A DNA stretch of 64,000 nt from Turbatrix aceti (lineage: Eukaryota; Nematoda; Chromadorea; Rhabditida; Panagrolaimidae): positions 3,438,739 to 3,502,738 of the forward strand of contig OZ017767.1 in assembly GCA_963969345.1 (NCBI GenBank), read 5' to 3'. The translations under genes were made by a program, and so were the position numbers. A model generated the notes under the pieces. It was not told the DNA's origin. It made no database searches and saw only the letters and a program-made list of their open reading frames with translations. This document shows positions 47,562 through 63,946 of this stretch, piece after piece (positions within the stretch are counted from its first letter, which is position 1; each line of letters starts with the position of its first letter).

Positions 47562-48791
47562 TAAATCAGAAACAAAACAGTAGTAAAAAGGTATCCAGCA
47601 GAAATTTCTTCTCGACTCGTTTACTCGTGACGATGGCAGTGTCCTAAAAACAGAAACACTTCATAAAAACGGTAAACTCGAAAAAAAATTTTATCAGGAA
47701 TATCGCGTCGCGTTCAAAGCAGAAAAAACACAAAAAAATTTGTGCATCCAAAAAAAAACAACAAAATTTGTATTAGGCTTGCAGTGAAACGTGGCACAAA
47801 ATTCCGCCCAGGAAATCGGACATGATCGGCGTCGACAACGAGGTAGGAAACTGCGGTGCACACAGGAAGAAGGAAAAAAGTCATTTTTTTTGAAGGAAAC
47901 AAATGGGAATCAGGAAAAAAATGCAAAGAAAAACGAGAAATGAAAAAAAAAGTTATAACAAAGATGAAAAAAAGTGTGGACAAATAAAATCGCAGTGAAC
48001 CACAGAAACATAACAAACCGCAAAGAAAAGCAAAAGCATCTTTATCCCAAACTTCTGCGCCCTGGCCGAGCCAAATCAAATTAGAAAAAAAATTTCTTGC
48101 AATCATGCCAAAAAAGGTGCACTATGGAAAGAAAATTTAAAAATCGTGAGTAAAAGACGGGAAACGCCCCATCAACCACCACGATGGCCAGAATCAAATG
48201 ATAAGAAAACTGCACCTTTGCCAAGACAATATCTACCTGCACAGGGCACAAAACAAAACAATCAACCAAAATAAAAAAAATCCGACGATAAAAATTGTTT
48301 TCACCCCACCTTGGAAAGGATGGAAAAAAATGAAATTTGAAACAAAAATCTTCCTCGCCAAGACAGCCACAGGCTTCAAATTGTGCAATTGCCGAAAAAG
48401 GCTGAGCCAAGGACCGCGATCGATGAATAGAAAAGCAAAAAAACATGAACAAGAATGCGCAATAAAAAAGAAGAATTCTGGAGGAACAAAAATAGAGCAA
48501 AACGTAGGAAACATTACTGTGACTTATAAAATACTGTAACTTTGTTGTCAGAACTGGAAAAAAGGTGAATTCAAAAATCCTGGATAACAACAATGGCCAA
48601 AAAAGGTTGGCAGCAGCAGCAGCGCAGTGACGAGAAAAGCAGTGGTTGATTGTGCGGGAGAACTGCGCGCACACACAACCATCATGCCAACAAGGGAAAG
48701 CGTGGGTATCAAAAAAAGCCTGATCAGGGTTCTCGGCACGAAAATAAAGCTGATGGCAAGAAAAATTTTTTATTAAAGTTATCTTTTAAAG
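47562..48791. other. A-rich intergenic region
   Basis: About 1.2 kb dominated by A-runs (AAAAAA every 20-40 nt on the plus strand). Open frames on the minus strand are Phe/Leu/Ser-rich by composition only. Upstream flank of the acidic-protein gene; no promoter motif identified. Confidence 0.55.
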
Positions 48792-51700
48792 ATGAATTCG
48801 AAGCACGACCAAACTTCGAGCGACGCGGCGCATGCCTCCGGGCACCGTCGCACTCCATCCCGCTCGCCATCGCCACCTCCTCCAACTGCATCGGCGCGAG
48901 CGGGAATGTCGCCTCGGCGACAGGAGTCACCTGGGGCTGAAGATGCCCGTCGGTTTCTGGGTAACCGGATGCAGGCGGTGCACTCTGAGGTCCAGGGACT
49001 TCACAACGCAGGACCCATCGAAGGTGAGTAACATTCATTTATCAACTTGTTTTTTTTTTATAAAATCTTGTACAACCTTCACTGATGACTTTTTTTGCAA
49101 CATCTTCTGGGAATGGGGAGAATTCTGGACAATTGAACATTATTTTTTTTAATTAAAAATTTATTTTTGAAAATAAAAAAAAACATTTTTGAATTTTGCT
49201 TGTTTTCAAAGGAATTGTTCGGAATATTTTTTTGTTTTTTTATAAGCTCTGTTTTTATCCCCAGCTAACAAGAATTTTTTGTTCTATGCGTACATCCTGT
49301 TTTATTGTCACCTGATTTTTACAAAACTGATTCCCGTTCATGGCATACTCTTGACTGATTTTTTTCATCTTCAATTTTCAGTAGAATTTGATTATTTGTA
49401 AATTCGTGATTTTTGTCCACCTCCGGCCAAAAACAATTTTTTTTGACGGATCATTTTTTTCTGCGAATGGGAAAGAATCCTGAACCATTGATCATATTTT
49501 TTTTTAATAAAACAAATTAATAAAATGCATCCAAAATAATTATCTTCACATCTGTCTGTTGTCATCCGAATTTCTTTTTTTTCCAATTTTTTTCTTTTTT
49601 TCTTGTCTTTTTTTTAACTTTTTTGAATTTGCTTGTTTTCAAAGGTTATCTTTTATCTTTATCGTTGGAATATTTTTTTTTGTTTTTTTTTATAATCTCT
49701 GTTCTCATCCCCAGATAACATGAATTTTTTGTTTAATGCGTACATCCTGTTTTATTGTCACCTGATTTTTACAAAACTGATTCCCGTTCATGGCATACTC
49801 TTGACTGATTTTTTTTCACCTTCAATTTTCAGTAGAATTTGATTATTTGTAAATTCGTGATTTTTGTCCCCCTCCGGTCAAAAACAACTTTTTTTGACGG
49901 ATCATTTTTTTCTGCGAATGGAAAAGAATCCTGAACCATTGATCATAATTTTTTTTTAATTATCTTCACATCTGTCTGCTACACGCTGGAATGAATTTAA
50001 TGTCCGGAGGCTGTTGCCATCCGAATTTCTTTTTTTCCGATTTTTTCCCTTTTTCCTGAATTTTATTTTTTTTTTGTTTTTTTATAATTTCTGTTCTTAT
50101 CCCCAATCCTGTTTTTTTTGTCACCAGATTTTTGCAAAATTGCCTCAAATTCATGACATACTCTTGACTGAATTTTGTTCACTTTTGATATTGAGTAGAA
50201 TCCGATTATTTGTCAATTTATCGTGATTTTTGTCCCGCTCCGGGCAAAAACAGGCTGTAATTGAACAACATTCTTCCCGTAAATAATTTTTTTTTCATCC
50301 AGGACCTTACGTTTTTTGAGTTTCTAGCAATAAGTCTCGCATTTTGTTTTAAAAAAAAATCTTGTGGTTGTAATTCTTATACAAATTTTTTTCGAAAATT
50401 TTTTTTCGAAAATTTTGTATGAATAAATTATCTGGTCAAAATGTTTTGTAAAAATTTAAAAATATGTGATTTGACTTTTTTTATGCTGAATTTTTTTTCA
50501 GACGTCGAGATGGAGTCGCTGCACGGCGACGACGACGTCGAGATGGCCAGCCTGCAAGGGGACGGCGACGTCGACATGCAGTCCGTCGACGGCGACGAAG
50601 ACGACGACCACAACAACGACGAGGGCCAGGGCTTGGGCGGAGCTAGCCGATCGTCCCCGGTAGCACGAATCTTCCGTGCTGCCGTCGGACCGAGGCTCCG
50701 CATCCCGCTTCGGAACCGGCCGGCTTTCAAACCGGTACGACCGATGGGGTGCGGGGGCACCTTCGCGGTCAACCGGGCATGGGAGGAAACTCTCAGATCC
50801 TACCCCGACCCGCGAGGAGCCCAGCCGCCGGCTGCTCGACGCACGCGGCCACCTCGACCAACGCATGCTGCCGCTGCGGTCGTTGCTGGCATTCCAGCCA
50901 GCTCGGCCAAAGCCAAAGCTGCAGCCGCCGTCGTAGCAGCCCCCGCCCCCTCCTCCTCCTCCGTCGCCGTCCCCCGCTGCCACACAGGCGGCACCTGAAG
51001 CCAAACCGGCTGACGGTGCCGTCATCAAGTCCACCGGCATTGTCGGTGGCAACCAGGTCGTTCCCGGCGACCACGTCTGCCTTCGTCGGCCCCGCTCCTC
51101 CTCCACGGAGCCCCCGGCCAAGAGGCGACGTGTGTCGGCCGATGTCGACGAAGACAACACCGAGCCCCTCCGCTCGCCGAATCCTGTCCCTAGCAAAGAC
51201 AGCGAGGCTGGCAGCGGAGTCAACACCGGCGGCTCGGACGACAACGACGGAGAGGCCCTGCAAGTGGCACCGCAGGTCCTGGCGGAGCAGGCCTCTCCAG
51301 TCTGCGTCAACAACGACGACGACGAAGCCGAAGACGATGAGGAAGCCAACAACGGCGCGGAGAACGACGCTGACGCTGGTGGCGCCGACGACAACGCGGA
51401 ACTCTTCAACGTTCCACCGCCGCCAGCTGAAGCGTCAAGCGGATACCCTGAAGCTCTCTTTCGGGGTCCGTACATCCCGCCGTTCGTCCCGTCCGCGTAC
51501 AACTGGAACATCCTCCAGTACGCGTGGACGCGGCTCTACGACGACAACGGCGACCTCATCGTCCCCTCGCGTGTCGAAGCCCCGGTGATTCTTCACCGCA
51601 GCGAAGAAACGGGCGACGACTACGACGAGAACGGCGACGTCATCGTCCCAGAAGCCGAAGAAGAACCGGCCGTCCGCGCCCCACCCAGCCCATCCACATC

Positions 51701-52183
51701 GCAGGGTGGCGCACCGGTGGTCGACGATGTCCAGGCTCCCGACAATGTCGTGGCAGTCTACGACGCCATCGTGGAAGACGTCGGCCACTGGCAGGACGAT
51801 GCCGGCTTCGACGGCGAAGCAGCCCTCGACGACGTCGACGAAGCTGTCAACGACGACAACGGCAACGACAGCGACGAAGACAACGACGAGGAAGACGACG
51901 ACGCCCACCCGTACCCGATGGATGACGCTTGGGTACTCGACGTCGAAGCCATGGAGGACCTCAATCTCATTGGCGGAGACGTTGAGCCCATCGTCGTCGA
52001 CGCCCCTCCACCTCCTCCTCCGAGCCCCGCACTGCCACCACCACCGCCTCCGCAGCAGCCGAGGTACAACTTGCGGCAGGCTCGCCGGGCGCCTGAACGG
52101 CTCAATGTCGTTCACAGCGGGCGGGTACAGAGGTACCCCACGACGGGTGGCGTCGTCGTTGATCGACAGGGCAGGCGACTTTG
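48792..52183 (+). CDS. Acidic, proline-rich, probably nuclear protein (frameshifted)
   Basis: Exon 1 (48792-49023) and exon 2 (50502-52183) join in phase 1 (G|AC). Exon 1 is Ser/Pro/Arg-rich. Exon 2 opens with acidic repeats (DVEMESLHGD, DVEMASLQGD, DVDMQSVDGD), an Arg/Pro-rich stretch, polyAla, PPAKRRRV (a basic nuclear-localisation-like motif), long Asp/Glu/Asn tracts, the repeated YDDNGDLIVP / YDENGDVIVP block, polyproline runs, and the basic YNLRQARRAPERLN near the end. The frame shifts once at about 50936-50975, where a CCCCC run has one base too many for continuity. No catalytic domain is seen. GC content and codon use are far above neighbours. Splicing the GTATGT donor at 52184 to the next TTTTCAG (52380) would create TGA at the junction. 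About 640 residues if the frame is continuous. Confidence 0.6.
49199..50260. repeat. Tandem triplication inside the acidic-protein intron
   Basis: Three copies of one AT-rich segment at about 49199-49504, 49627-49951 and 50076-50260 (the last partial), period about 430 bp. Shared marks: TTATCCCCAG, TACATCCTGTTTTATTGTCACC, GGCATACTCTTGACTGA, and CTCCGGCCAAAAACA. The first two are nearly identical and the third is degenerate, so the duplication is recent for two copies and older for the third. Confidence 0.85.
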
Positions 52184-52370: not shown

Positions 52371-55300
52371 ATGAATTTTCAGAAGCAAGAATTTCGGCCA
52401 CCTCTGCTCATTTGGCTTCTCCGCTGTCCGAGCATGTGGCAAGTTCTTCGCCTGTCCTGTCATCTCTTTTCTGACAAACCGACGTTGAATCCTGATACAT
52501 CTTCTTCAACATCGGGAACTCAAAACGACGCCAAGCACTCCGACAGTGGACACTCAGACGCCAACAGTCCGACAATGGTCCATTTCGGAAGCCCAGATGC
52601 CAAGGAGGACACCCAAAATTTTTTTCGGTTAGTTTTTTTTCTCATCTGATTTTTTATTTTCGTGTTTTCATCAATATATTTTTTTCCATTATTTTTGCAC
52701 TTAAAAAAATTATTTTTTATAAAAATCGTTAAATTAGTTCGGCAAAAAAAAACTATTTTTGTTGCAACATTTTTTTCTACTAAAACAATTGTGAAACCGA
52801 GTGTAAGAAGATTTTATATACATTTTTTCATGATTTTTTTTTCAGAAGCGAACCAAGCCAAAGCTGTCTACCCCGACTGGAAGCCGCCAGGTACCGATGG
52901 AGCCTCGATCGATGACAACGACACGCTCCGCATCCTTCCACACACCTGATCTGCGGTTTTGCCAGAAATTCTGTTGCCGATCCATTCGGGAGACCAGAAC
53001 CATGCCTTGCAGCCTACGATACCGACTCTGGGTTTTTTGAAGACGCACTCGCTCGAGAAGCTTGCGTGCCATCCCAGTCACTCATGAACAAGCACATCCA
53101 AGCAATCGTTTCACGCCAATGAAGCCAAATGCAGATGAAATGTGTACCATGGCGCGGTCGTTGTGCTGCCAGATTTCATTTTTTCCCTCAAAAGTGAGTT
53201 TTTTGCAGATTTTTTTTATAAAAACTTTTTTGGGAGCTAAAATACAATTTTACATGGGTTCAAAAATCTGTAAAAAAAATTATTACGCGAAAAAAACGTT
53301 TTTTATGTTTTAGGAGCTGGATCGAACGAAGCCAGAAGGCAATTCTTGATTTTTCCGTGACAACCCAATTCCGTGCTACAATCCCGATATTCTCGCCTCA
53401 AGATGGGAAACAGTGATACCGGATCAAGCCTGTCCAGAAAAAGCTCCTCAAACAAGATCGATTTGACGCGATTTGAGGCCTCCAGGAAGCCACTGGGTTT
53501 TTTGAACACAAATGCAGCCGCTCGAAATTCGCTGAGGAATTCCACACGCCAACGACAGTCTCGCATACCACCTAGCCAAGATTTGTACCGGTGTCGGCTA
53601 TTTTGCTCATCCTCAAGCTCGTTTCCGGATGCCCAGATGCCAAGGGGGAAACGAAAAATTTTTTTGGTTGGTTTTTTTCTCATTTTGTATTTTATTCATC
53701 AATTCATAATTTTTTTCCAATTTTTTTTCCAATTAAAAAAATTATTTTTTTATAAAAATCGTTAAATTAGTTCGGCAAAAAAAACTATTTTTGTTGCAAC
53801 ATTTTTTTCTACTAAAAAAATTGTGAAACCGAGTGTAAGAGTGTTTTATACAAAATAATGCGCTGTTACTTTTTTTTTCATTTTTATGTTTTTTTTTCAG
53901 CAGAAGCGAACCAAGCCAAAGCTGTCTACCCCGACTGGAAGCCGCCAGGTACCGATGGAGCCCCGATCGATGACAACGACACGCTCCGCTTCCTTCCAAA
54001 CACCTGATCTGCGGTTTTGCCAGAAATTCTGTGGCCGATCCATTCGGGAGACCAGAAGCAAGCCTCGCAGCCTACGATACCGAATCTGGGTTTTTTTGAA
54101 GCCGCACCGACTCGAGAAGTTTGCACGCCACCCCAGTTACCCATGAACAAGCACACCATCCAAGCAATCGTTTCACGCCATTGAAACCGATGAAATGTGC
54201 CCATGGCGCGGTCGTTGTGCTGCCAGGAATCAAAAGTGAGTTTTTTTGCACACAAATTAGAATTTTTTTATAAAAAATTTTTTTGGAAACCAAAATTCGA
54301 TGTTGCAAAAAAATGGTAAAAAAAAATTTATGTGAAAAAAAACGTTTTTATTTGGTTTCCTATCAAAACAAATGGTTTTCAAAATTTTCCTCATTGTTTT
54401 TTTTAAATGGATTTTGTTTTAGGGTATTTGTGGCGACCAACCTGCATTCCATGTGCCCGATTTGAAAATCCAGCACTCTGTCAGACGATACGGTGTCACG
54501 AGCGCAAATCCCACCACGACGTCAGCATGCCATGATGTCACCCCGATTATTCCGCTCCACCATCGCGAAAAACTGACAAGCAGCCGCCCGAAGCACCCCA
54601 GCAACCACTCGCTCGAGAAGCTCGCTGCCGCTCATTTCTCAGGCCATTTGACGTTCGGGAAGAAAGGTCTGCTCCACCTCAAGCCCCTGAACAACGAGAA
54701 CATTGCTCGCTTATTTCGATGCCGACGACGCTCAGCGATTCCGGCAAGATATCAGATTTGACATGGCTCGCACTGCCTCGCTCAACAGCACGACGTGAAG
54801 TCGATTTAATCAAATTTTGGCCATATTCTGACGCCACCTGCCGATTTTATATTACAACGCCTGCCGAAGCAGTTCACACTGCGATACTGCAACAATTGCA
54901 GCCTCGAAATCCAGGCATACTCGGCCAGGAGTTGTTGGTGTATTTTTTTGTGTGAGTTTTTTTTCGGACACACTTCTTAAAAAAAAAGTTTTTGGAATTT
55001 TTTTCGCACGTTAAATTTTTTTTACGTCCAATACAAAAAAAGTTGTACATACCACAAAATTTAAACTGTTGCACACATATTTGAATTTTTTTATAAAATT
55101 TTTTTTGGAAACCAAAATTCGATATTTCAAAAAAATGGTAGAAAAAAATTGTTATGTGAAAAAAACGGTTTTATTTGGTTTCCTATCAAAACAAATGGTT
55201 TTCAAAATTTTTTCATTGTTTTTTTTTAAGTGAATTTTGTTTTAGGGTAATTGTGGCGACCAACCTGCATTCCATGTGCCGATTTGAAAATCTAGCACTC

Positions 55301-56370
55301 TGTCAGCAGACGATACGGTATCAAGAGCGCAAATTGTTACCCAGCGCTTCTACCAGGACATCAGCACGCCAGAAAACTCGCCTGAATGACAGCCCGATTG
55401 CACCATCATTACTTTCGAGCAGTCGCCAGATGCACGTGGCTAGTCCAGCAAGCACTCGCTCGAGAAGCTCACACTGATTGCAGTCCCCGTGATCCACAGA
55501 TTTCTCATGCCATTGGACGTTCGGGAAGGAAGGTCAGCTCACCCTCAAGCCCATGAACAAAAGCAACATTGCTCCGCTCATGTCGAGTTGCATTTGATGC
55601 CGACGACGCCGGCGATTCCGGAGGACATCGGATTTGACATGTTTCGTCTCCGTGCAAAAATTTCGCTCCCCACATTACCTCACAGTCCGACATGAAGTCG
55701 GTTCAATCAAATTTTGGCCATTTCCTGACGCCACCTGTCGAGCCTGGATTACAAATCCTGTCAAAGCCGTCCGCACTACTAAACTGCACCAATTGCAGTC
55801 TCGACGGAATCCTGATCATACTCGGCCATGAACCGTTGGCCTATTATTCGTGTAAGTTTTTTTTCTTATCCAGTATTTTTTATAAATTTTTTATTAAAAT
55901 TTTTTTATGGAAAAAACTAAATTAAAAAAATTTAATTGAATAATTGAAGCAAAAAATTTTTATAAAAGAACATTTTTACATAACTCATATTTTTTTTTCA
56001 AATTTTCATCCAGTATTCTTTTCAGAATCTGGCATCAAAAATTACTCGCGCAAATGCCCGGGAAAGCAGACAGTGCAAAATCGGAAATCGCGCTCTTTTA
56101 TCGCTTCCGCCAATCCCGTCAGCAACGACAAAAGCCACGAATACTCAATGAGAGTTGCTTCAAAAGAAAAAAAATGTCGTAAGCCAAAGCCATACCGAAA
56201 TGAGTCCACGCTGTCCATCAATGACGACGACTTTGAACGCCCCATTTCTGGAGGGCATCGTCGCGACGACCACCCTCAATCACTCGGACATCCGAGTTGA
56301 ACGTCGTCACCAAATCCTGTCGACACAGGACGGACAGCTAATTGGAAAATTGGTGAAAATTCGATGGCAT
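52371..56370 (+). ncRNA. Duplicated exon-like blocks without a conserved frame
   Basis: GC-rich blocks (about 52381-52628, 52845-53190, 53313-53665, 53899-54237, 54422-54954, 55244-55852, 56025-56372) alternate with AT-rich spacers that look like introns (GTGAGTTTTT starts, TTTTTTTTCAG ends). Two cassettes are duplicated: 52690-53190 with 53712-54236, and 54280-54955 with 55110-55855. Between copies the best open frames differ and each is broken by stops or indels, so protein-level selection is not apparent. Small hairpins occur in both copies (CTGCA..TGCAG at 54887 and its counterpart near 55790). Either a decayed repetitive coding gene or exons of a long non-coding RNA continuing into the structured region to the right. 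Confidence 0.4.
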
Positions 56371-56579
56371 TAGGTGGGTTTTCAAGGAATTTTTTTTAAT
56401 CTTATAAAATTTTGATATTTTTTGGAAAAAGAAATTGTAAGACTACGTAATTACTTTTTATTTTGATTCGCAAAAAATCTCAAACAGTAATGAGTTTTTA
56501 TTTAAAAAATGGACGCAAAGACACACATTTTTAATTATACAGATTTTTTTTCAAAAAAACCCGTTCACTATTTTTTTTC

Positions 56580-57165
56580 AAAGTAAGCCTTTTTTTAGCA
56601 GATACCAAACGAGACCAAGACTGCTCCAAAGCAAACCCACGCACGGCAACCGATAGCCGAATCACCTCGTACTCACACTCCATGGCTTCAAATGCGGAGC
56701 CCGAGTTTGGCAGCACCCATTAGCCAATATTGCTCGATCACCACCCAAATACCATCCTTTCTACCCAAGATGGCGTTTTGGAACAACGGCAGACAACAGC
56801 CGATACCGAAAACGAGCACCGCGATTGACACCTGATTTTATCATCGCCGAAACCTGTCAGCAGCTAGCGACAGCAAATTTGAAAAGAATTGGGGCATATG
56901 AGGTACGTTTTTAGCAAAAAAAAATTTATAAAAAAAAGTTGAACCTTTTTTTGGGAAAAAGGTTTTTCTTCAAATTTTTATAATTTTTTTCAAAATGCAG
57001 AACAAAAAATTTCTCACAAAATGTTCATGGAAGTATTTTTTATTTTTTATAAATTTATTTATCGTTTTTATAAAAATATCAATAGACATAAAAACTAATT
57101 TCGGATAAAAACATTTTACTAAAATTATTCTCACAGATTTGTTTTTCAAAGTAAACTGTTTTAGC
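56580..57165 (+). other. Exon-like block plus AT spacer
   Basis: A GC-richer block (56600-56905), ending at GAG|GTACGT, is followed by an AT-rich spacer with TTTATAAATTTAT-type sequence to about 57165. No frame is convincing. Only short inverted repeats (4-5 bp) are seen in the block. Confidence 0.35.
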
Positions 57166-57875
57166 AAATACCAACAAAGTGAAGTCAATTTTATGGCCAG
57201 AACACCCACGCAGATTGAGCACTGCCGTCAAAGTCAAGCCAGACAACGCTGCCCTGCCGAATTTCCTTTCACGCGATTGACACCCGACTTGGAGCCCCGT
57301 CAACTCCAGAAATCGCAAAGGCAATGTGGATCAAACCCTCGCGAGCAACATTGCCATATCGAGCAACCGGCACAAGCACATCCGTGGCAGCGCAAAAACA
57401 AAGAAATGCATGGGCACCTGATGAGGGGCATCGCCGAATCCTGTCAACTCTGAGGCAACCCCACGCACGGCATTCCATACCCAGACCGTCAAAATCGCTG
57501 CCCATGCCAAGAATTTCCTCTCACGCGATACAAGTTCGACTTGGAGTCCGCTGAGCTCCAGAACATCGCAATACCAAAGCAGCCAGGTGCCGTGATTGCG
57601 AGTCCGACATGACCCATCACGTAAGAACGCCCTGCTAGCTACGACGACAACTACCGTAGTCAGAGTATCAAGGAAGCAGATGACCGAAACCACGATGGCA
57701 TCGTGAGTGGCCTGCCCGATACTCAAGCGAACACGCCTGCGTCCAGTCATCGTACTACCATGACTACGGTGACACCGAACAATCCAGTTCGTCACCAGAG
57801 GCAACAACATCCCCATCAAAGGTTGTTGCCTCGGACCAGGCGTCGCAGATATTTCCACGATTTTTCCTCGAGGTT
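57165..57875 (+). ncRNA. Structured block A
   Basis: A block bounded on the left by a TTTTAGCAAATACC acceptor-like site and on the right by an intron-like AT spacer. Two diverged copies of a segment (57231-57330 and 57485-57585) keep the stem TGGAG/CTCCA (57290-57294 with 57304-57308; 57542-57546 with 57556-57560) while the loop differs. At its right end are nested perfect stems: 57653-57661 with 57762-57770 (9 bp), 57663-57669 with 57718-57724 (7 bp), 57691-57697 with 57699-57705 (7 bp), 57768-57773 with 57791-57796 (6 bp) and 57798-57808 with 57822-57832 (11 bp). No long frame with a recognisable product. Confidence 0.45.
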
Positions 57876-58134
57876 CGTTTTTTTTTACAAAAAAATTTTT
57901 ATAATATAATTTATTGGAAAACTAAACTGTTTTTTTTGGAAAACTAAATTCTTTATTTAAAAAAAAATTTTTGGAAAACTAAATTATTTTATTAAAAAAA
58001 TATTTCATATACTATAAAATGCTTTTTTTAAACAAAATTATTTTGATACCTTTTTTATAGTTTAAATTTGTTAAATAAAAATTGATTGTTGAAAAAAATT
58101 TTTTTCATCCATTTTAATTGAATATTTTTTTCAG

Positions 58135-58475
58135 ATCGGCTGTCCGTTCATGGACATCCCATTCCCGTCCGCCAGGCAAGCACTGGACGGGAGTCCACGT
58201 CAGCCGATCCATCCAAGCCGTCAGCAGCGATCAAGTGACTCTGATCCGCGACGCACGGGCCGAGGCACCTAAGCCAGCCCCGAGGTAGGCTCGTATCGGT
58301 TTTTCTCAAAGTGGGAGGGTCGTGCTCATATAGGAGGGGGTTCTTGCTAACAGCTTATATAGGTGCCCGGATGCGCATTTGTGACTGGCTCAACCCTGGG
58401 TCAGTCACCGCCCCTGCGACGTCGGGCTTTTATTATTTATTGAATGCATTTATTTTTATGTTATAATTATTTGTA
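58135..58475 (+). ncRNA. Structured block B with cloverleaf-like fold
   Basis: Starts right after a TTTTTTTCAG acceptor. An outer 9-bp stem (58134-58142 with 58201-58209) encloses GTCC/GGAC (58142-58145 with 58152-58155) and a 7-bp stem CCCGTCC/GGACGGG (58164-58170 with 58185-58191). Further stems: GATCA/TGATC (58229-58233 with 58242-58246) and GTGACTG/CAGTCAC (58381-58387 with 58402-58408). It is followed by an A-rich tract, a layout reminiscent of a retroposed RNA. It is not a tRNA: arm sizes and loops do not fit. Confidence 0.4.
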
Positions 58476-58517
58476 AAAAAAACCCAAAAAAAAAAAAACA
58501 AAAAAAAAAAAAAAAAA

Positions 58518-58556
<39 letters not shown>

Positions 58557-58600
58557 AGAAAAAAAAGAGCCTATAATGCCACCAGAAAAAAAAGAGCAAA
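58476..58600. repeat. A-rich tract 1
   Basis: About 90 bp of nearly pure A, interrupted by single C or G, after structured block B. Could be a retroposition tail, simple-sequence expansion or a spacer. Minus-strand polyPhe open frames across it are artefacts. Confidence 0.8.
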
Positions 58601-58683
58601 AATGCCAAAAAAAAAGAGCCATAACAAGGGCCAACTTTCTGTCTAGCAAATAGACAAAGAACGGCGGTGGATGGTAGTCAGCC

Positions 58684-58950
58684 ATGGTCGAAAGACCGAC
58701 CATCGGAGCATATTAGCCGTGCATTGTTAACGGACGCTCCGGTGGTTCCACCGGGCCCCCCATGGATGACGGGGGCCCAGGCAATTTCTTCGGAAGTTGC
58801 CAGCCGTTAGATGATCGCTGTCCTTCCCGGGCGGCGTCGCCATTCCCGCCCGGTCGACTAGCGGGCTGCCTCGTGGCCCGCTGCTCTCGGAGACGTCCAA
58901 TAATTTTGGCCGCCTCCGAGGGCAAACCGTGCAGCGACATCGACTAATGG
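58684..58950 (+). ncRNA. Structured block C: train of hairpins
   Basis: Consecutive perfect stems: GGTC-GAAA-GACC (58686-58697), CGGAGC/GCTCCG (58704-58709 with 58736-58741) enclosing CCGT/ACGG, CCGGTGG/CCACCGG (58739-58745 with 58748-58754), GGGCCCCC/GGGGGCCC (58753-58760 with 58771-58778), GGCAATTTC-TTCG-GAAGTTGCC (58780-58801, with one G-U), CCGGGCGG/CCGCCCGG (58827-58834 with 58846-58853), AGCGGGC/GCCCGCT (58860-58866 with 58876-58882) and CTCGGAG/CTCCGAG (58886-58892 with 58914-58920). Neighbouring stems that overlap by a few bases are alternatives or coaxial. GAAA and TTCG are the classic stable RNA tetraloops. The block ends at a possible donor (TGG|TAAGT). Open frames on both strands exist but show no family. 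Confidence 0.5.
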
Positions 58951-59002: not shown

Positions 59003-59150
59003 GACAACCGCCTGACCAGCGAAGAGGCTTAGGCTGCTAGTCAGCCTTCCTGCCTGCCCGACGCGGTTTCAACTGCCGCACAGGGCCGCCACCACACGAG
59101 GCATTGGACCTGAAGATAATCGGTCCAATGCGTGGTAGTATTTTTCTATC
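59003..59150 (+). ncRNA. Structured block D
   Basis: After a TTTTGCAG acceptor. Holds a perfect 10-bp stem GCATTGGACC/GGTCCAATGC (59101-59110 with 59122-59131, 11-nt loop). Confidence 0.4.
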
Positions 59151-59215
59151 TTTTTTGAAGGTATGTCTCTTTGAATTTTTCAAAATCAGAAAATAAAAGT
59201 TGTTTTTTTTCAGAC

Positions 59216-59442
59216 GCAAGGTCACTAGATCAACATTCGCTTGATCATTCACCACTCAACCATCATAATCTTCAACAATGAATCCTCAATCATCCATCAT
59301 CAACATCGGAGCGACATAGTCGCTCCAATTAGCGGGCCCAGTCATCCCAGACTGCCCCCGCCGATGCGCCAGCGTCTTCACTTCAAAACAGCAAGAATCC
59401 AAACTTGCAGCGCATCTCGGAAACGAAGTGCCATCCAAAATG
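59216..59442 (+). ncRNA. Structured block E
   Basis: Between a TTTTTTTTCAG acceptor (59214) and a GG|GTAAGT donor (59442). Contains GGAGCGAC-ATA-GTCGCTCC (59308-59326), a perfect 8-bp stem with a 3-nt loop. CATCAT/ATCATC-type simple repeats precede it. Confidence 0.35.
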
Positions 59443-59501
59443 GGTAAGTAAAAAATTGGGGTCGGTGTCCAGAGCTTCTAATCAGAAATTGTACTTTCAG
59501 A

Positions 59502-59890
59502 TGTAAGTCGCTTCTCCCTTCCACGTCTGGTTTGGGATCCTTCAACTTTCTTCAACTCAACATCGTCGCAAAACCCACCGCAGCCAGCGCCGATGATCTT
59601 CGGATCATACAGGGGCCACCGAGTGTCCCACAAATGGCACGTCGGCCGGCGCTGGCTGTCCGTCTATGGTGGCAATTTCCCTTTGTTTCCCCCTATTTAT
59701 ATTATATACCCTTTTGTGTCTGCTAACAATCAGGCACTCCCGGCGTCGCGCGCTTTCCTGGGCACCACTTAGAGCACCTAGCATTACCTCCCTCCTGAGC
59801 ATGACCCAAACACACCCGATACGAGCTGAGTCCCCAAAATTATGAGAGGAAAGGAAAAATGTGGAAACACTAATTAGATTGATATCAGCG
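59502..59890 (+). ncRNA. Structured block F with 12-bp stem
   Basis: A perfect 12-bp stem CAGCCAGCGCCG/CGGCGCTGGCTG (59581-59592 with 59647-59658) encloses ATGATC-TTCG-GATCAT (59593-59608), a 6-bp stem capped by TTCG, and a further GTG(T)CC/GGCAC pairing. The inner hairpin abuts the outer stem, so the two would stack. No convincing coding frame. Confidence 0.45.
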
Positions 59891-59892
59891 AT

Positions 59893-60163
59893 ATGCGCCG
59901 ATCTACGCCTCCGTCGACCATAGGCAATCCTGCCTCCGGAGCAGCAGTAGTGGCGTCTCGGTGGTTGCAACCTTCTCTGCAGCCACCGAGCAATCAATGG
60001 GCCTCGCCAGCCCAACCAACTACGAACGAGGTGATGGCACCAACTCCAGAAATAAGTCCATCACCTCACGTAGACGATTCCGGTCGCACCTTCTAGGCGA
60101 CGAGCAGGCATTTTTTGCCGTCAATCGCTCCAAAGTCGCCAGCTGCACCGTAGAAGGGTTACA
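59893..60163 (+). ncRNA. Structured module copy 1
   Basis: Order of stems: CTCGGTGGTTGCA/TGCAGCCACCGAG (59957-59969 with 59978-59990, 13 bp with one G-T), TGGGC-CTCGCCA-GCCCA (59998-60014), GAGGTGATGG/CCATCACCTC (60028-60037 with 60058-60067, 10 bp), then a second domain CCTTCTA/TAGAAGG (60089-60095 with 60151-60157) enclosing GGCGAC/GTCGCC (60096-60101 with 60135-60140) and GGCA/TGCC (60107-60110 with 60116-60119). Ends at ACAG|GTAGGT. The stems recur in copies 2 and 3 with sequence changes. Confidence 0.55.
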
Positions 60164-60349
60164 GGTAGGTAAAATATTTTTTATTTCAAATACAAAGTAA
60201 AAAATTGACATTTTATTTTTAGGTAAAAAAATCCATTTTTCTGCAGATTTTGTTGAAAACATTTTTATCTACGAAAATCAATTTTTTAATAAATTTTTAT
60301 TCAAATGTTTCATTCCGTCCACAAACTAATCGTTGCCATTCTTTTCCAG

Positions 60350-60890
60350 GAAACGAAACATACCTGCACCCCGTGCCGACCGATGAAAAGACCCCGGCGG
60401 CAATCCATGCTGCCGCTCAAATGGCACACCGCCGGGGCAACGGCGTCTTGGTGGCTTCAACACTGCTCAGCCACCAAGAATCCATGGGCCTCGCCAGCCC
60501 GAGAAACTACAAACGAGGCGATGGCACAATCATCTGAATAAGTCCATCGCCTCATGTAGAACACGCGGTGACCAGTAAAGCGCACTAAGGTAATTTTTTT
60601 TATTTTTTTATCGGTGCCAAAATCGAGTTTTTACAAAAACTATATTTTTCTAATAAAAAGTTTCCTATTTTTAATTTAAAAAAATATTTTCATTTTCTTA
60701 TGTATTTCTCAAATCCTAAAAAAATCTTACTAAAAAAAATTCTGACTTTTGTAATTTTTTGTAGGTGCCTGATGACCAAGTCATCCAACGCCCCCGTAGG
60801 CGACGATTCCGGCGGCCCCTTCTAGGCGACGAGCAGGCACTTTTGCCATCAATTGCTCTCAACTCGCCCATAACACCTTAGAAGGATAAC
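60350..60890 (+). ncRNA. Structured module copy 2
   Basis: First part, after a TTTTCCAG acceptor: CCCCGGCGG/CCGCCGGGG (60392-60400 with 60429-60437), TCTTGGTGGCT/AGCCACCAAGA (60446-60456 with 60469-60479), TGGGC-CTCGCCA-GCCCG (60485-60501), GAGGCGATGG/CCATCGCCTC (60515-60524 with 60544-60553). After an AT-rich spacer (about 60590-60765) comes the second domain: CCTTCTA/TAGAAGG (60818-60824 with 60879-60885), GGCGA/TCGCC (60825-60829 with 60864-60868) and GGCA/TGCC (60836-60839 with 60844-60847). So the two domains that are continuous in copy 1 are separated here by an intron-like spacer. Confidence 0.55.
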
Positions 60891-60944
60891 AGGTTGGTCA
60901 ATTTTTTTATTTCCACACAAACTGACCCCTCTTATTTTTTGTAG

Positions 60945-61174
60945 GTTACGCAACGTCCCTGTTCAAGCGCCGACCGATGAAAAGACCCCGGCGGCCATCA
61001 GCTTCGAGCGGAATTAAAGTGCAGAACGCTATGCTGCCGCTCGAACGATAGCCTCCTATGCCGGGGCAGCAACGGCGTCTTGGTGGCTTCAACATTGCCA
61101 CCAAGAAACTATTTATGGGCCTCGCCAGCCCAATCGACTACAAACGAACTCAGGATGACCAGTAAATGCACTGA
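60945..61174 (+). ncRNA. Structured module copy 3
   Basis: Stems: CCCCGGC/GCCGGGG (60986-60992 with 61060-61066) enclosing TTCGAGCGG/CCGCTCGAA (61003-61011 with 61037-61045, 9 bp), TCTTGGTGGC/GCCACCAAGA (61078-61087 with 61097-61106, 10 bp) with a shorter loop than copies 1-2, and TGGGC-CTCGCCA-GCCCA (61116-61132). The GAGGYGATGG stem is lost. It begins after TTTTTTGTAG. Confidence 0.5.
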
Positions 61175-61375
61175 GGTAATTTTTTTTATCAGTTTAGTGA
61201 GTTTTGAGCAAAAATCGAGTTTAATTAGTTCGTGGATTTCTTTACTTTTTTTCAAAAAAGATCTACAAATTTATCTGTTCCAATTTCGGTTGCATTTATC
61301 ATTCTGACCGCAAACTAATCACTGCCATTTTTTCAGGAAACGAACGTACCTCACTGCAGCGGCCAACTTCAACTT

Positions 61376-61577
61376 CAAAAAAAAAAAAAAAAAACGGAAA
61401 AAAAAAAAAAAAAAAAAACGGAAAAAAAAAGAAAAAAAAAGGAAAAAAAAAAAAAAAACAAAAAAAAAAAAAAAAAAAAAACGGAAAAAAAAACAAAAAA
61501 AAACAAAAAAAAAAAAAAAAAATGTCTTAAAACAAAAATTAATCTTTTGAAACAAAAAAAAAAAAAAAAAAAAAGAG
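61376..61577. repeat. A-rich tract 2
   Basis: About 200 bp of A-runs broken by CGG, G or C. It follows the module region in the same orientation as tract 1 follows block B. Confidence 0.85.
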
Positions 61578-61835
61578 CCGTACGGCCACATTTTCGTTTA
61601 TTGAAATTTGGACACCTGAAACCACTACAGCTACAACACGGCGTCCACATCACGGTTTTTTTGAAACCCAGACGACTACCACTATTATCATCGTCAAGTG
61701 CTTCCAGTCCAGTCCTTCCGAACAATACTGGACTGGACTCCCATTCACTCAAGCACTATTTTCCATGGACTCGATCTGCATCATCCACAGATGCAGTTCC
61801 TCTTCATGCGACAGCCTTTTTTCCAAACTTGAAGG
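61578..61835 (+). ncRNA. Structured block G
   Basis: GCCGTACGGC palindrome (61577-61586), then nested stems AGTGCTT/AAGCACT (61697-61703 with 61751-61757) and AGTCCAGTCC/GGACTGGACT (61706-61715 with 61730-61739, 10 bp), then CTGCATC/GATGCAG (61776-61782 with 61790-61796). Ends before GGTTGGTTCTTGTAAAAA, an AT-rich spacer. Confidence 0.45.
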
Positions 61836-62409: not shown

Positions 62410-63875
62410 ATAACGAAAAATCCGGAAAAATACCCGGTCTGGCGCGGCCAGTTTTTTGAAGATACCTGTGCGACACCGCGGCGAGACTACCACGGCGGCT
62501 ACCTATTCCTGGTCCTCAACCAAACCGACTACAACAAAAAACATCCTCACTATCCGTTAAATAGGACGTACTCATCCCAGTCCTCGGCGACGACTCACCG
62601 CTCTCAGGATGGTTTTTATATTTTTTTCACTCACATCAGTTTTTACTTCTTTTTGTATTTACTCACCTCGGCACACATAAAACACGTGTGTACAAAATTT
62701 TTTTATTACGATTTTCAAACAATTTTAAGTGCGACTACCAAAAACAATACTTTTTTCAAATTGTTTTTCTAAATTCTGGAAGAAAATTATGTTTCACGTA
62801 ATCACCAAATCCGGAATTGTCCGGTCTGGGATGACCAGTCTTTTGAGGTATCTATGCGAAACCACTGCGAGCCTACCGAAACGGGTACAACCATCAAACG
62901 TCTACAATGTCCGTTAAATAGGACGTATCCTAATCACGGCGACGACCCTTATGCCTTAGGCTGCTATCAGGATGGTTTTTATTTATTTTCCCTACTCACT
63001 TCGTTTTTTACTTTTTTTGTATTCACTCACCTCGGTACACAGAAAACACGTGTGTACGAAATTTTTTTTATTAGAATTTTGAAAGCACTTTTTATATTTT
63101 TTATGTAACAAAAAATCCGGAAAATGCCCGGTCTGGCGGAGCCAGTCTTTTTAGGTTCTTTTACCTGATTTTCATACTTGCCTGAATCTAAACAAGACAA
63201 CTGCATCAACAGAGCAGAATAAATATTCATTGGGCACACACCGGCGCCACGAGCCGATCAGATCAGGCTGCTACGACTACGGATGCCGTTGGCATTATTT
63301 TCACTACTCACTCGCGGCCACTACTTCTCTGCCACTGCAATTCAGGAGGCGTGTTGGTTGGTACACATAATTATAAAAGATTTTTTATTAAAACTACTTT
63401 TTTCGTTTTATTTTTTAATTGCGACAAACAAAAACAATAATTTTTTGAAACAGTTTTTCTAATCCTGAATTAAAATAATTTTTCACGTAACCAAAAAATC
63501 CGGAAGATGCCCGGTCTGGCGTAGCCAGTCTTTTGAGGTGCGATAACTGCAGTTGCAACTGTGCGTGCCATCCCAATCGACCGTGACCTGCACGACAACA
63601 GCAGCAACAGCTAGATCAGAAAACGGCTCACAATGCCTGCACGTTCCCGATGGTCAACGTCCTACATCTGCTCTTCCTAGCCGCCTACTGCAACTTACTG
63701 CTGGTTGGCAAACTTACAAATGATTTTTTTTTCAAATTATTTCAAACTTTTTTTAATTAAGACTAACACACATTTTTTTCGAAAATATTTCTTTCCAAAT
63801 TTGACTAAAATTATTTTTCACGTAATCGCAAAATCCGGAATTGTCCGGTCTGGCATGACCAGTCTTTTGAGGTAG
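62410..63875 (+). repeat. Five-copy CCGGTCTGG hairpin repeat
   Basis: A conserved core occurs at about 62420, 62808, 63110, 63497 and 63832 (spacings of about 300-390 bp): AAATCCGGAA, 4-6 variable bases, CCGGTCTGG, then a 5-nt loop-like segment and CCAGTYTTTT(G)A. CTGG(C)/(G)CCAG is complementary in every copy, while the loop varies (CGCGG, GATGA, CGGAG, CGTAG, CATGA). Each core is preceded by an AT-rich spacer with TTTCACGTAA and followed by a divergent GC-rich block. Frames are not conserved. Confidence 0.75.
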
Positions 63876-63946
63876 ATATATCACCTGTACAACACTCGCA
63901 CCGCTTCCAGCATGCCGCGACAACTATCGCCCGAGTCAATCACCGA

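Follow-up and report, generated by a model that had tools for sequence, protein, structure and literature searches.

The conserved parts of the Drosophila RNAs roX1 and roX2 are protein-bound stem-loops, with little conservation outside them (PMC7734150). Among long non-coding RNAs (lncRNAs) tested for covariation, support for a conserved structure is usually weak or absent (PMC11234323). Here we describe a locus of the nematode Turbatrix aceti that resembles roX1 and roX2 in its conserved stem-loops within an otherwise poorly conserved, putative non-coding transcript. It lies in a stretch of 64,000 nucleotides (hereafter the window; GenBank assembly GCA_963969345.1, contig OZ017767.1, positions 3,438,739 to 3,502,738, forward strand) on the 12.3 Mb contig C2 and carries three diverged copies of a short stem-bearing module. 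The genome searched comprises 59.9 Mb in 28 contigs; all comparisons are drawn from this one genome, where few branches connect the copies. We consider it likely that the modules belong to spliced non-coding exons of a nematode gene with many copies, and that selection keeps their pairing, most likely in the transcript. The best reading of the locus is a new region of structured RNA, present in many copies and preceded by a disordered-protein frame.

An earlier sequence-only reading of the window had described paired substitutions in the module stems. The elements concerned, all on the + strand, are the following:

59957–59990, +, module 1 stem 1 (59957–59964/59983–59990), from direct reading and the copy alignment
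59999–60013, +, module 1 small hairpin GGGC-CTCGCCA-GCCC, from the copy alignment and a genome pattern search
60020–60073, +, module 1 stem 2 (60028–60037/60058–60067) within CTACG/CGTAG, from the copy alignment
60446–60479, +, module 2 stem 1, from the copy alignment
60486–60500, +, module 2 small hairpin, from the copy alignment and the genome pattern search
60507–60559, +, module 2 stem 2 (60515–60524/60544–60553) within CTACA/TGTAG, from the copy alignment
61078–61106, +, module 3 stem 1, from the copy alignment

Direct reading confirmed both changes. In stem 1 the pair C59959-G59988 becomes T-A (CTCGGTGG/CCACCGAG in copy 1, CTTGGTGG/CCACCAAG in copies 2 and 3), and in stem 2 T60032-A60063 becomes C60519-G60549 (GAGGTGATGG/CCATCACCTC in copy 1, GAGGCGATGG/CCATCGCCTC in copy 2). 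A third paired change had been overlooked: the stem enclosing stem 2 reads CTACG/CGTAG (60020–60024/60069–60073) in copy 1 and CTACA/TGTAG (60507–60511/60555–60559) in copy 2. The small hairpin GGGC-CTCGCCA-GCCC is, as had been noted, common to all three modules. Two statements hold in part. While modules 1 and 2 are full, copy 3 in the window has stem 1 but no stem 2, which is missing in six of eight aligned unit copies and present in two. The two paired changes, described as independent, both fall on one branch within the window (module 1 versus modules 2 and 3) and are weak evidence alone.

To this picture we add a multicopy family and an exon-like context. The unit carrying the modules measures about 17 kb; its common 5' part starts near 48517 in three of the four copies compared, and its common 3' part ends about 1.9 kb past the window in most copies. 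The exon at 58640–58950 (the best exon) has 15 matches in the genome, nine in close copies (F1, 96–100% identity to this exon; eight on C2 and one on contig C5) and six in diverged copies (F2, 78–80% identity, all six on C2), so that 14 of 15 lie on C2. The protein exon has 10 matches and the 3' part of the unit 11 long ones; some units are therefore partial. A genome search for the small hairpin ATGGGCCTCGCCAGCCC gave 23 exact matches, all at F1 units, and none for its reversed control. Exact small hairpins number 23 in the 27 F1 modules expected, and 10 of 12 F2 modules have one (F2 by reading). Many copies at two depths of divergence within one genome permit a test of pairing without a second species.

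Several copies form inverted pairs on C2 (F1 on + at 3.49 Mb, F2 on − at 3.51, F2 on + at 3.57 and F1 on − at 3.62 Mb), and inverted copies occupy the regions 3.49–3.62 Mb and 5.04–5.08 Mb (loci L001, L003, L008, L035 and L036). The F2 pair at 3.51/3.57 Mb is 100% identical over 400 bases, and the F1 pair at 5.05/5.07 Mb has equal match scores. For the best exon, eight of the nine F1 copies were aligned, with one of the pair 5.05/5.07 per alignment.

By eye, most GC-rich blocks from 52.4 kb on have ttttcag-like sequence before them and gtaagt-like sequence after them. GT/AG ends are kept in 14 of 14 copies (eight F1, six F2) at three introns and in all eight F1 copies at four more. We therefore read the blocks as exons and the gene as transcribed from left to right. 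The putative structured exons, with folding z-scores (z), are:

58640–58949, +, best structured exon, predicted multibranch fold with GAAA and C(UUCG)G loops, z −10.2; its exact 5' end is not fixed
59004–59160, +, structured exon with stem 59101–59110/59122–59131, z −3.0, splice sites kept in 14 of 14 copies
59214–59443, +, structured exon with hairpin 59304–59330, z −6.8, splice sites kept in 14 of 14 copies
59501–60164, +, exon with module 1, which may contain a further intron, z −5.0
60350–60589, +, exon with module 2 and outer stem 60392–60400/60429–60437, z −5.5
60765–60892, +, structured exon, by repeat comparison a partial repeat of the module 1 exon, z −3.6
60945–61175, +, exon with module 3 (stem 1 and small hairpin, no stem 2 here), z −4.3
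61578–61832, +, structured exon with stem 61703–61713/61727–61737, z −6.0

Stems in these exons vary far less than loops. Among eight F1 copies and 13 stems at 58.7–61.7 kb, variable columns made up 10 of 246 in stems and 48 of 205 in loops, compared with 349 of 1749 in other exon sequence and 224 of 750 in introns; most of the 13 stems had been picked as perfect in the window copy. When the window copy was left out and all 25 exon blocks were used, the difference held (60 of 324 stem columns versus 99 of 258 loop columns, P=1.3e-7). In these counts a column with a gap in any copy was taken as variable. The stem 61703–61713/61727–61737 is identical in all eight copies, with a variable loop.

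The changes that do occur in stems are paired. The 24 modules aligned gave 21 distinct sequences, in which 99.6% of 545 cells are paired, compared with 26–45% when partners are slid by 1–3 columns. Three pairs carry changes on both sides, and neither the number of double-change cells nor the covariation score was reached in any of 500 partner shuffles. With F2 added, stem 1 has two double-change pairs (30 rows) and stem 2 has three (24 rows), while one pair of the module-exon outer stem reads G-C in 13, G-T in one and A-T in six of 20 F1 and F2 rows. The patterns behind these F1 and F2 rows left only the named positions free and are uninformative on others; the pattern for the outer stem found no match in the module 3 exon. 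When each group was reduced to representatives, seven of 28 pairs in four module stems vary on the 5' side and seven on the 3' side, and all seven coincide and stay paired (P=8.4e-7).

Exon 58640–58949 behaves alike. On the fold predicted from the window copy, 98.2% of 1369 cells are paired across 14 copies (32–46% in slid versions), with three double-change pairs; double-change cells and covariation score were again reached by none of 500 shuffles. Comparison of the window copy with each of four F2 copies revealed 3–4 broken pairs, versus a mean of 11–14 when as many substitutions are placed at random (P≤0.0001), and three double changes versus 0.2–0.3 expected (P=0.0006–0.0023); this null took its transition share of 0.36–0.38 from unpaired columns. 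In four F2 rows each arm of the stem 59101–59131 is one base longer, and the hairpin 59304–59330 is rewritten on both sides. As far as the aligned copies tell, stems are kept while loops drift, and stem changes are paired. Since F2 adds paired changes in the same stems, stems evolve slowly and few pairs are broken in exon 58640–58949, these data argue for selection on pairing. The proposal of the sequence-only reading that base pairing is selected thus gains support, mostly from genome-wide copies beyond its own evidence.

The same region holds more structure than expected by chance. Perfect hairpins with arms of at least 10 and loops of at most 40 bases number nine (two overlapping) in the 25 exon blocks, where shuffled sequences gave 0.2 on average and one at most. 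With arms of at least 8 there are 18, versus 3.5 in shuffles, and 16 of them lie at 57.3–61.8 kb; two control stretches of the window have no such excess (9 versus 5.6 and 2 versus 2.8). For the eight main exons between 58640 and 61832, z spans −3.0 to −8.0 on + and −1.7 to −6.7 on −, the + value being the lower one in all eight; a 36-nt piece at 61337 has z near +1. Eleven introns (−1.2 to +2.0), five stretches of other genes (−0.6 to +0.7) and 16 other non-coding blocks of the unit (−2.6 to +2.0) served for comparison. Exon 58640–58950 reaches −10.2 (100 shuffles) and its F2 relative −6.6 (200 shuffles), and the F2 module exons range from −3.8 to −5.6 on + and from −2.8 to −4.7 on −. Structured exons amount to about 2.2 kb per F1 copy.

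Where only one base of a G-C or A-T pair undergoes a transition, G-T results on one strand and A-C on the opposite one. Should RNA of the + strand need the pairing, G-U would therefore be expected to persist on +. In exon 58640–58949 the ratio of G-U to A-C on the + fold is 12:2 with the window copy as reference and 18:2 with an F2 reference (binomial P=0.0065 and 0.0002), versus 4:11 and 0:17 on the − fold. This bias lies on the spliced strand and points to RNA more than to DNA palindromes or to template switching. Exon 59004–59160 leans the same way (4:2 and 5:3), and in the module stems we read five pairs with G-U states and two with A-C. The C(UUCG)G loop of exon 58640–58949 is found in eight F1 copies, F2 having another loop; this loop class is said to be stable only as RNA (PMC8794818).

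Several observations weigh against selection for pairing in the transcript. As a plain number, three double-change pairs are reached in 246 of 500 partner shuffles for the modules and in 204 of 500 for exon 58640–58949. The simple coincidence test on that exon is weaker as well (P=0.013 and 0.022 for two F2 copies, 0.028 for copy c5.07). On our alignments the paired changes fall on few branches, too few in our judgement for a G-test. A control stretch at 20–32 kb of the window is also rich in hairpins (34 with arms of at least 8, versus 5.0 shuffled). Coding exon 2 (50493–52181) likewise has low z (−5.7 to −6.2 on +, −1.3 to −2.5 on −), so that z by itself lacks specificity and proves little. 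On whole-exon predicted folds, the other six exons gave G-U to A-C ratios on + of 19:20 against the window copy and 12:24 against a second reference; the corresponding ratios on − were 25:20 and 26:15. Over all stems the ratio is even (29:29 for arms of at least 6; 6:4 for arms of at least 8 at 57.1–61.9 kb). We take the strand evidence as good for exon 58640–58949, and as ambiguous and in part against RNA pairing for the other exons.

The alternative that survives best, though we think it improbable, is a selfish multicopy element with a transcript folded for the sake of its own spread or packaging. The many copies, in units of about 17 kb, would fit, as would a protein frame that travels with the structured exons in F1 and another disordered-protein frame that does so in F2. 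However, introns are kept in all aligned copies, which therefore spread by DNA; 14 of the 15 copies of the best exon are on C2, and the protein tested has no enzyme domain. Inspection of the termini by eye, not a systematic search, found no clear target duplication in five copies (5' end) and nine copies (3' end).

We give a somewhat smaller chance to pairing that acts in DNA, with the palindromes as cruciforms or as sites for a DNA-binding or recombination protein. The module exons have no + strand bias, if anything a reversed one, and copies largely stand in inverted pairs on C2, both of which suit such a role. It is at odds with the strand bias of exon 58640–58949, with the position of the hairpins in exons with kept splice sites, and with stems that sit within predicted multibranch folds of lower z on +.

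Less probable still is template switching in DNA replication, in which one arm of a hairpin is overwritten with a copy of its counterpart; paired changes would then be single mutation events and not the outcome of selection. The mechanism exists and mimics compensatory change (PMC8794818), and copy c5.05 has an inner hairpin with two perfectly matching 12-base arms, which other copies lack. Yet template switching would not slow the evolution of stems, whose columns vary less than those of loops, and does not predict single-row G-T states beside G-C and A-T, or beside T-A and C-G. Nor is it strand-specific, and a strand bias is seen, if in exon 58640 only. The sequence-only reading had named gene conversion of inverted arms as a process that could explain the pairing away, but arm copying predicts neither slow stems nor G-U intermediates. 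We regard it as highly unlikely that the hairpins are small-RNA precursors. The many perfect hairpins in the presumed transcript would suit such a role, but perfect arms measure 8–13 bp, short for Dicer or Drosha products, and loops and arm lengths are irregular.

Selection on pairing in a spliced transcript remains our preferred reading. Upstream of the structured exons, the unit comprises:

48792–49022, +, putative first coding exon, read directly from ATG to a gtgagt donor, 5' part aligned in five copies
50493–52181, +, putative coding exon for an acidic, proline-rich, probably disordered protein, from reading and copy comparison
52383–58420, +, GC-rich non-coding exon-like blocks, mostly without excess structure (z −2.6 to +2.0)

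The gene would thus run from coding exons for a disordered acidic protein to more than 20 non-coding exons. The frame at 50493–52181 is broken in the window copy and open across 506–646 codons in nine other matches. Provided that the splice sites are right, reading across the junction of this exon with the next gives a stop codon. The frame of another copy had no Pfam match, and none of 7999 protein database candidates scored was a relative. In F2 units the disordered-protein frame is another one; its basic tail is similar to that of the F1 frame, with which it aligns only weakly (E=0.29). By comparison of positions, relatives of this F2 frame lie at each of the six F2 loci and, with 49–60% identity, a short way upstream of five F1 units. 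Reading the structured exons themselves as coding was rejected: indels between copies are 1, 2, 4, 5, 11 and 15 bases long.

The first long intron contains a tandem repeat of about 0.45 kb (window 49182–50082) whose copy number differs between units. Long A-rich tracts flank the structured exons on both sides (58475–58625 and 61377–61580). The short motif ATCCGG..CCGGTCTGGC..CCAGT is repeated at about 0.35 kb spacing at 62416–63880 and is also present in the F2 gene (L011, about 100–150). By reading, two cytochrome P450-like genes lie near the F1 and F2 copies (L011 3930–5387 and L012 7021–8409).

At the gathering score, Rfam had no match in the window; at E≤5 the best match within 57.0–62.4 kb was a bacterial small RNA (E=4.9, 20.6 bits versus 79). 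ARAGORN, run with the bacterial code, found no tRNA. Two exact best-exon patterns, one searched in viral contigs and one in genome contigs, had no match in these narrow tests of a viral or bacterial origin. A literature search that left most subscription papers outside its range found no work on such a nematode RNA. For the SL1 RNA family, the genome has 43 matches, none above the curated cut-off (best 46 bits versus 75), and both SL1-like loci examined have the exact 22-base SL1 leader, in line with a nematode genome. A row of SL1-like matches, spaced mostly 1644 bases apart, lies on contig C6 at about 3.38–3.42 Mb.

How might such a transcript work? The exons at about 58.6–61.8 kb would fold into hairpins and multibranch domains and form a scaffold within a long transcript, which may be the protein mRNA, with an extremely long 3' untranslated region, or an RNA of its own. 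The shape would be held by stems whose loops are free. Drifting loops elsewhere and a nearly constant CUCGCCA loop in the small hairpin suggest shape-holding stems around a docking loop that is read by sequence; this hairpin, present three times per transcript, is a candidate docking site for a protein or a second RNA. A pairing partner for the CUCGCCA loop was sought as TGGCGAG, which is absent from 48–64 kb. We think that the structured exons probably act as a docking scaffold, a function suggested by their architecture. The docking loop and its partner are guesses, and this counts against the proposal; the encoded disordered protein is a candidate partner by its position. It is doubtful that the product of the C2 clusters is a large spliced RNA of modular build that acts, like roX or Xist, as a chromosome- or complex-organising scaffold, with CUCGCCA loops for docking and together with the 5'-encoded disordered protein. 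What the family offers for tests in a worm is a concrete fold, together with candidates for the docking loop and for the partner protein.

Among large structured RNAs, the bacterial OLE, GOLLD and ROOL are multi-hairpin molecules, some repeated per genome. The locus resembles them as a large, putative multi-hairpin RNA; it differs in being eukaryotic, probably spliced and without an Rfam match at gathering in the window. roX1 and roX2 are nearest in possible working, and we claim no membership: no match to them exists in sequence or in Rfam, a protein frame precedes the exons, and the gene has many copies. roX1 and roX2 act in dosage compensation, and C2 is probably not the X. COE, X-linked in Caenorhabditis elegans, lies on C6 and not on C2, as the one marker used. 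With template-switch hairpins the locus shares perfect stems and multi-base compensatory change (PMC8794818), but here stems are slower than loops and G-U states occur. With lncRNAs tested for covariation it shares long, spliced, non-coding exons; unlike them, several of its stems change on both sides, a kind of support that is rare for long eukaryotic non-coding exons.
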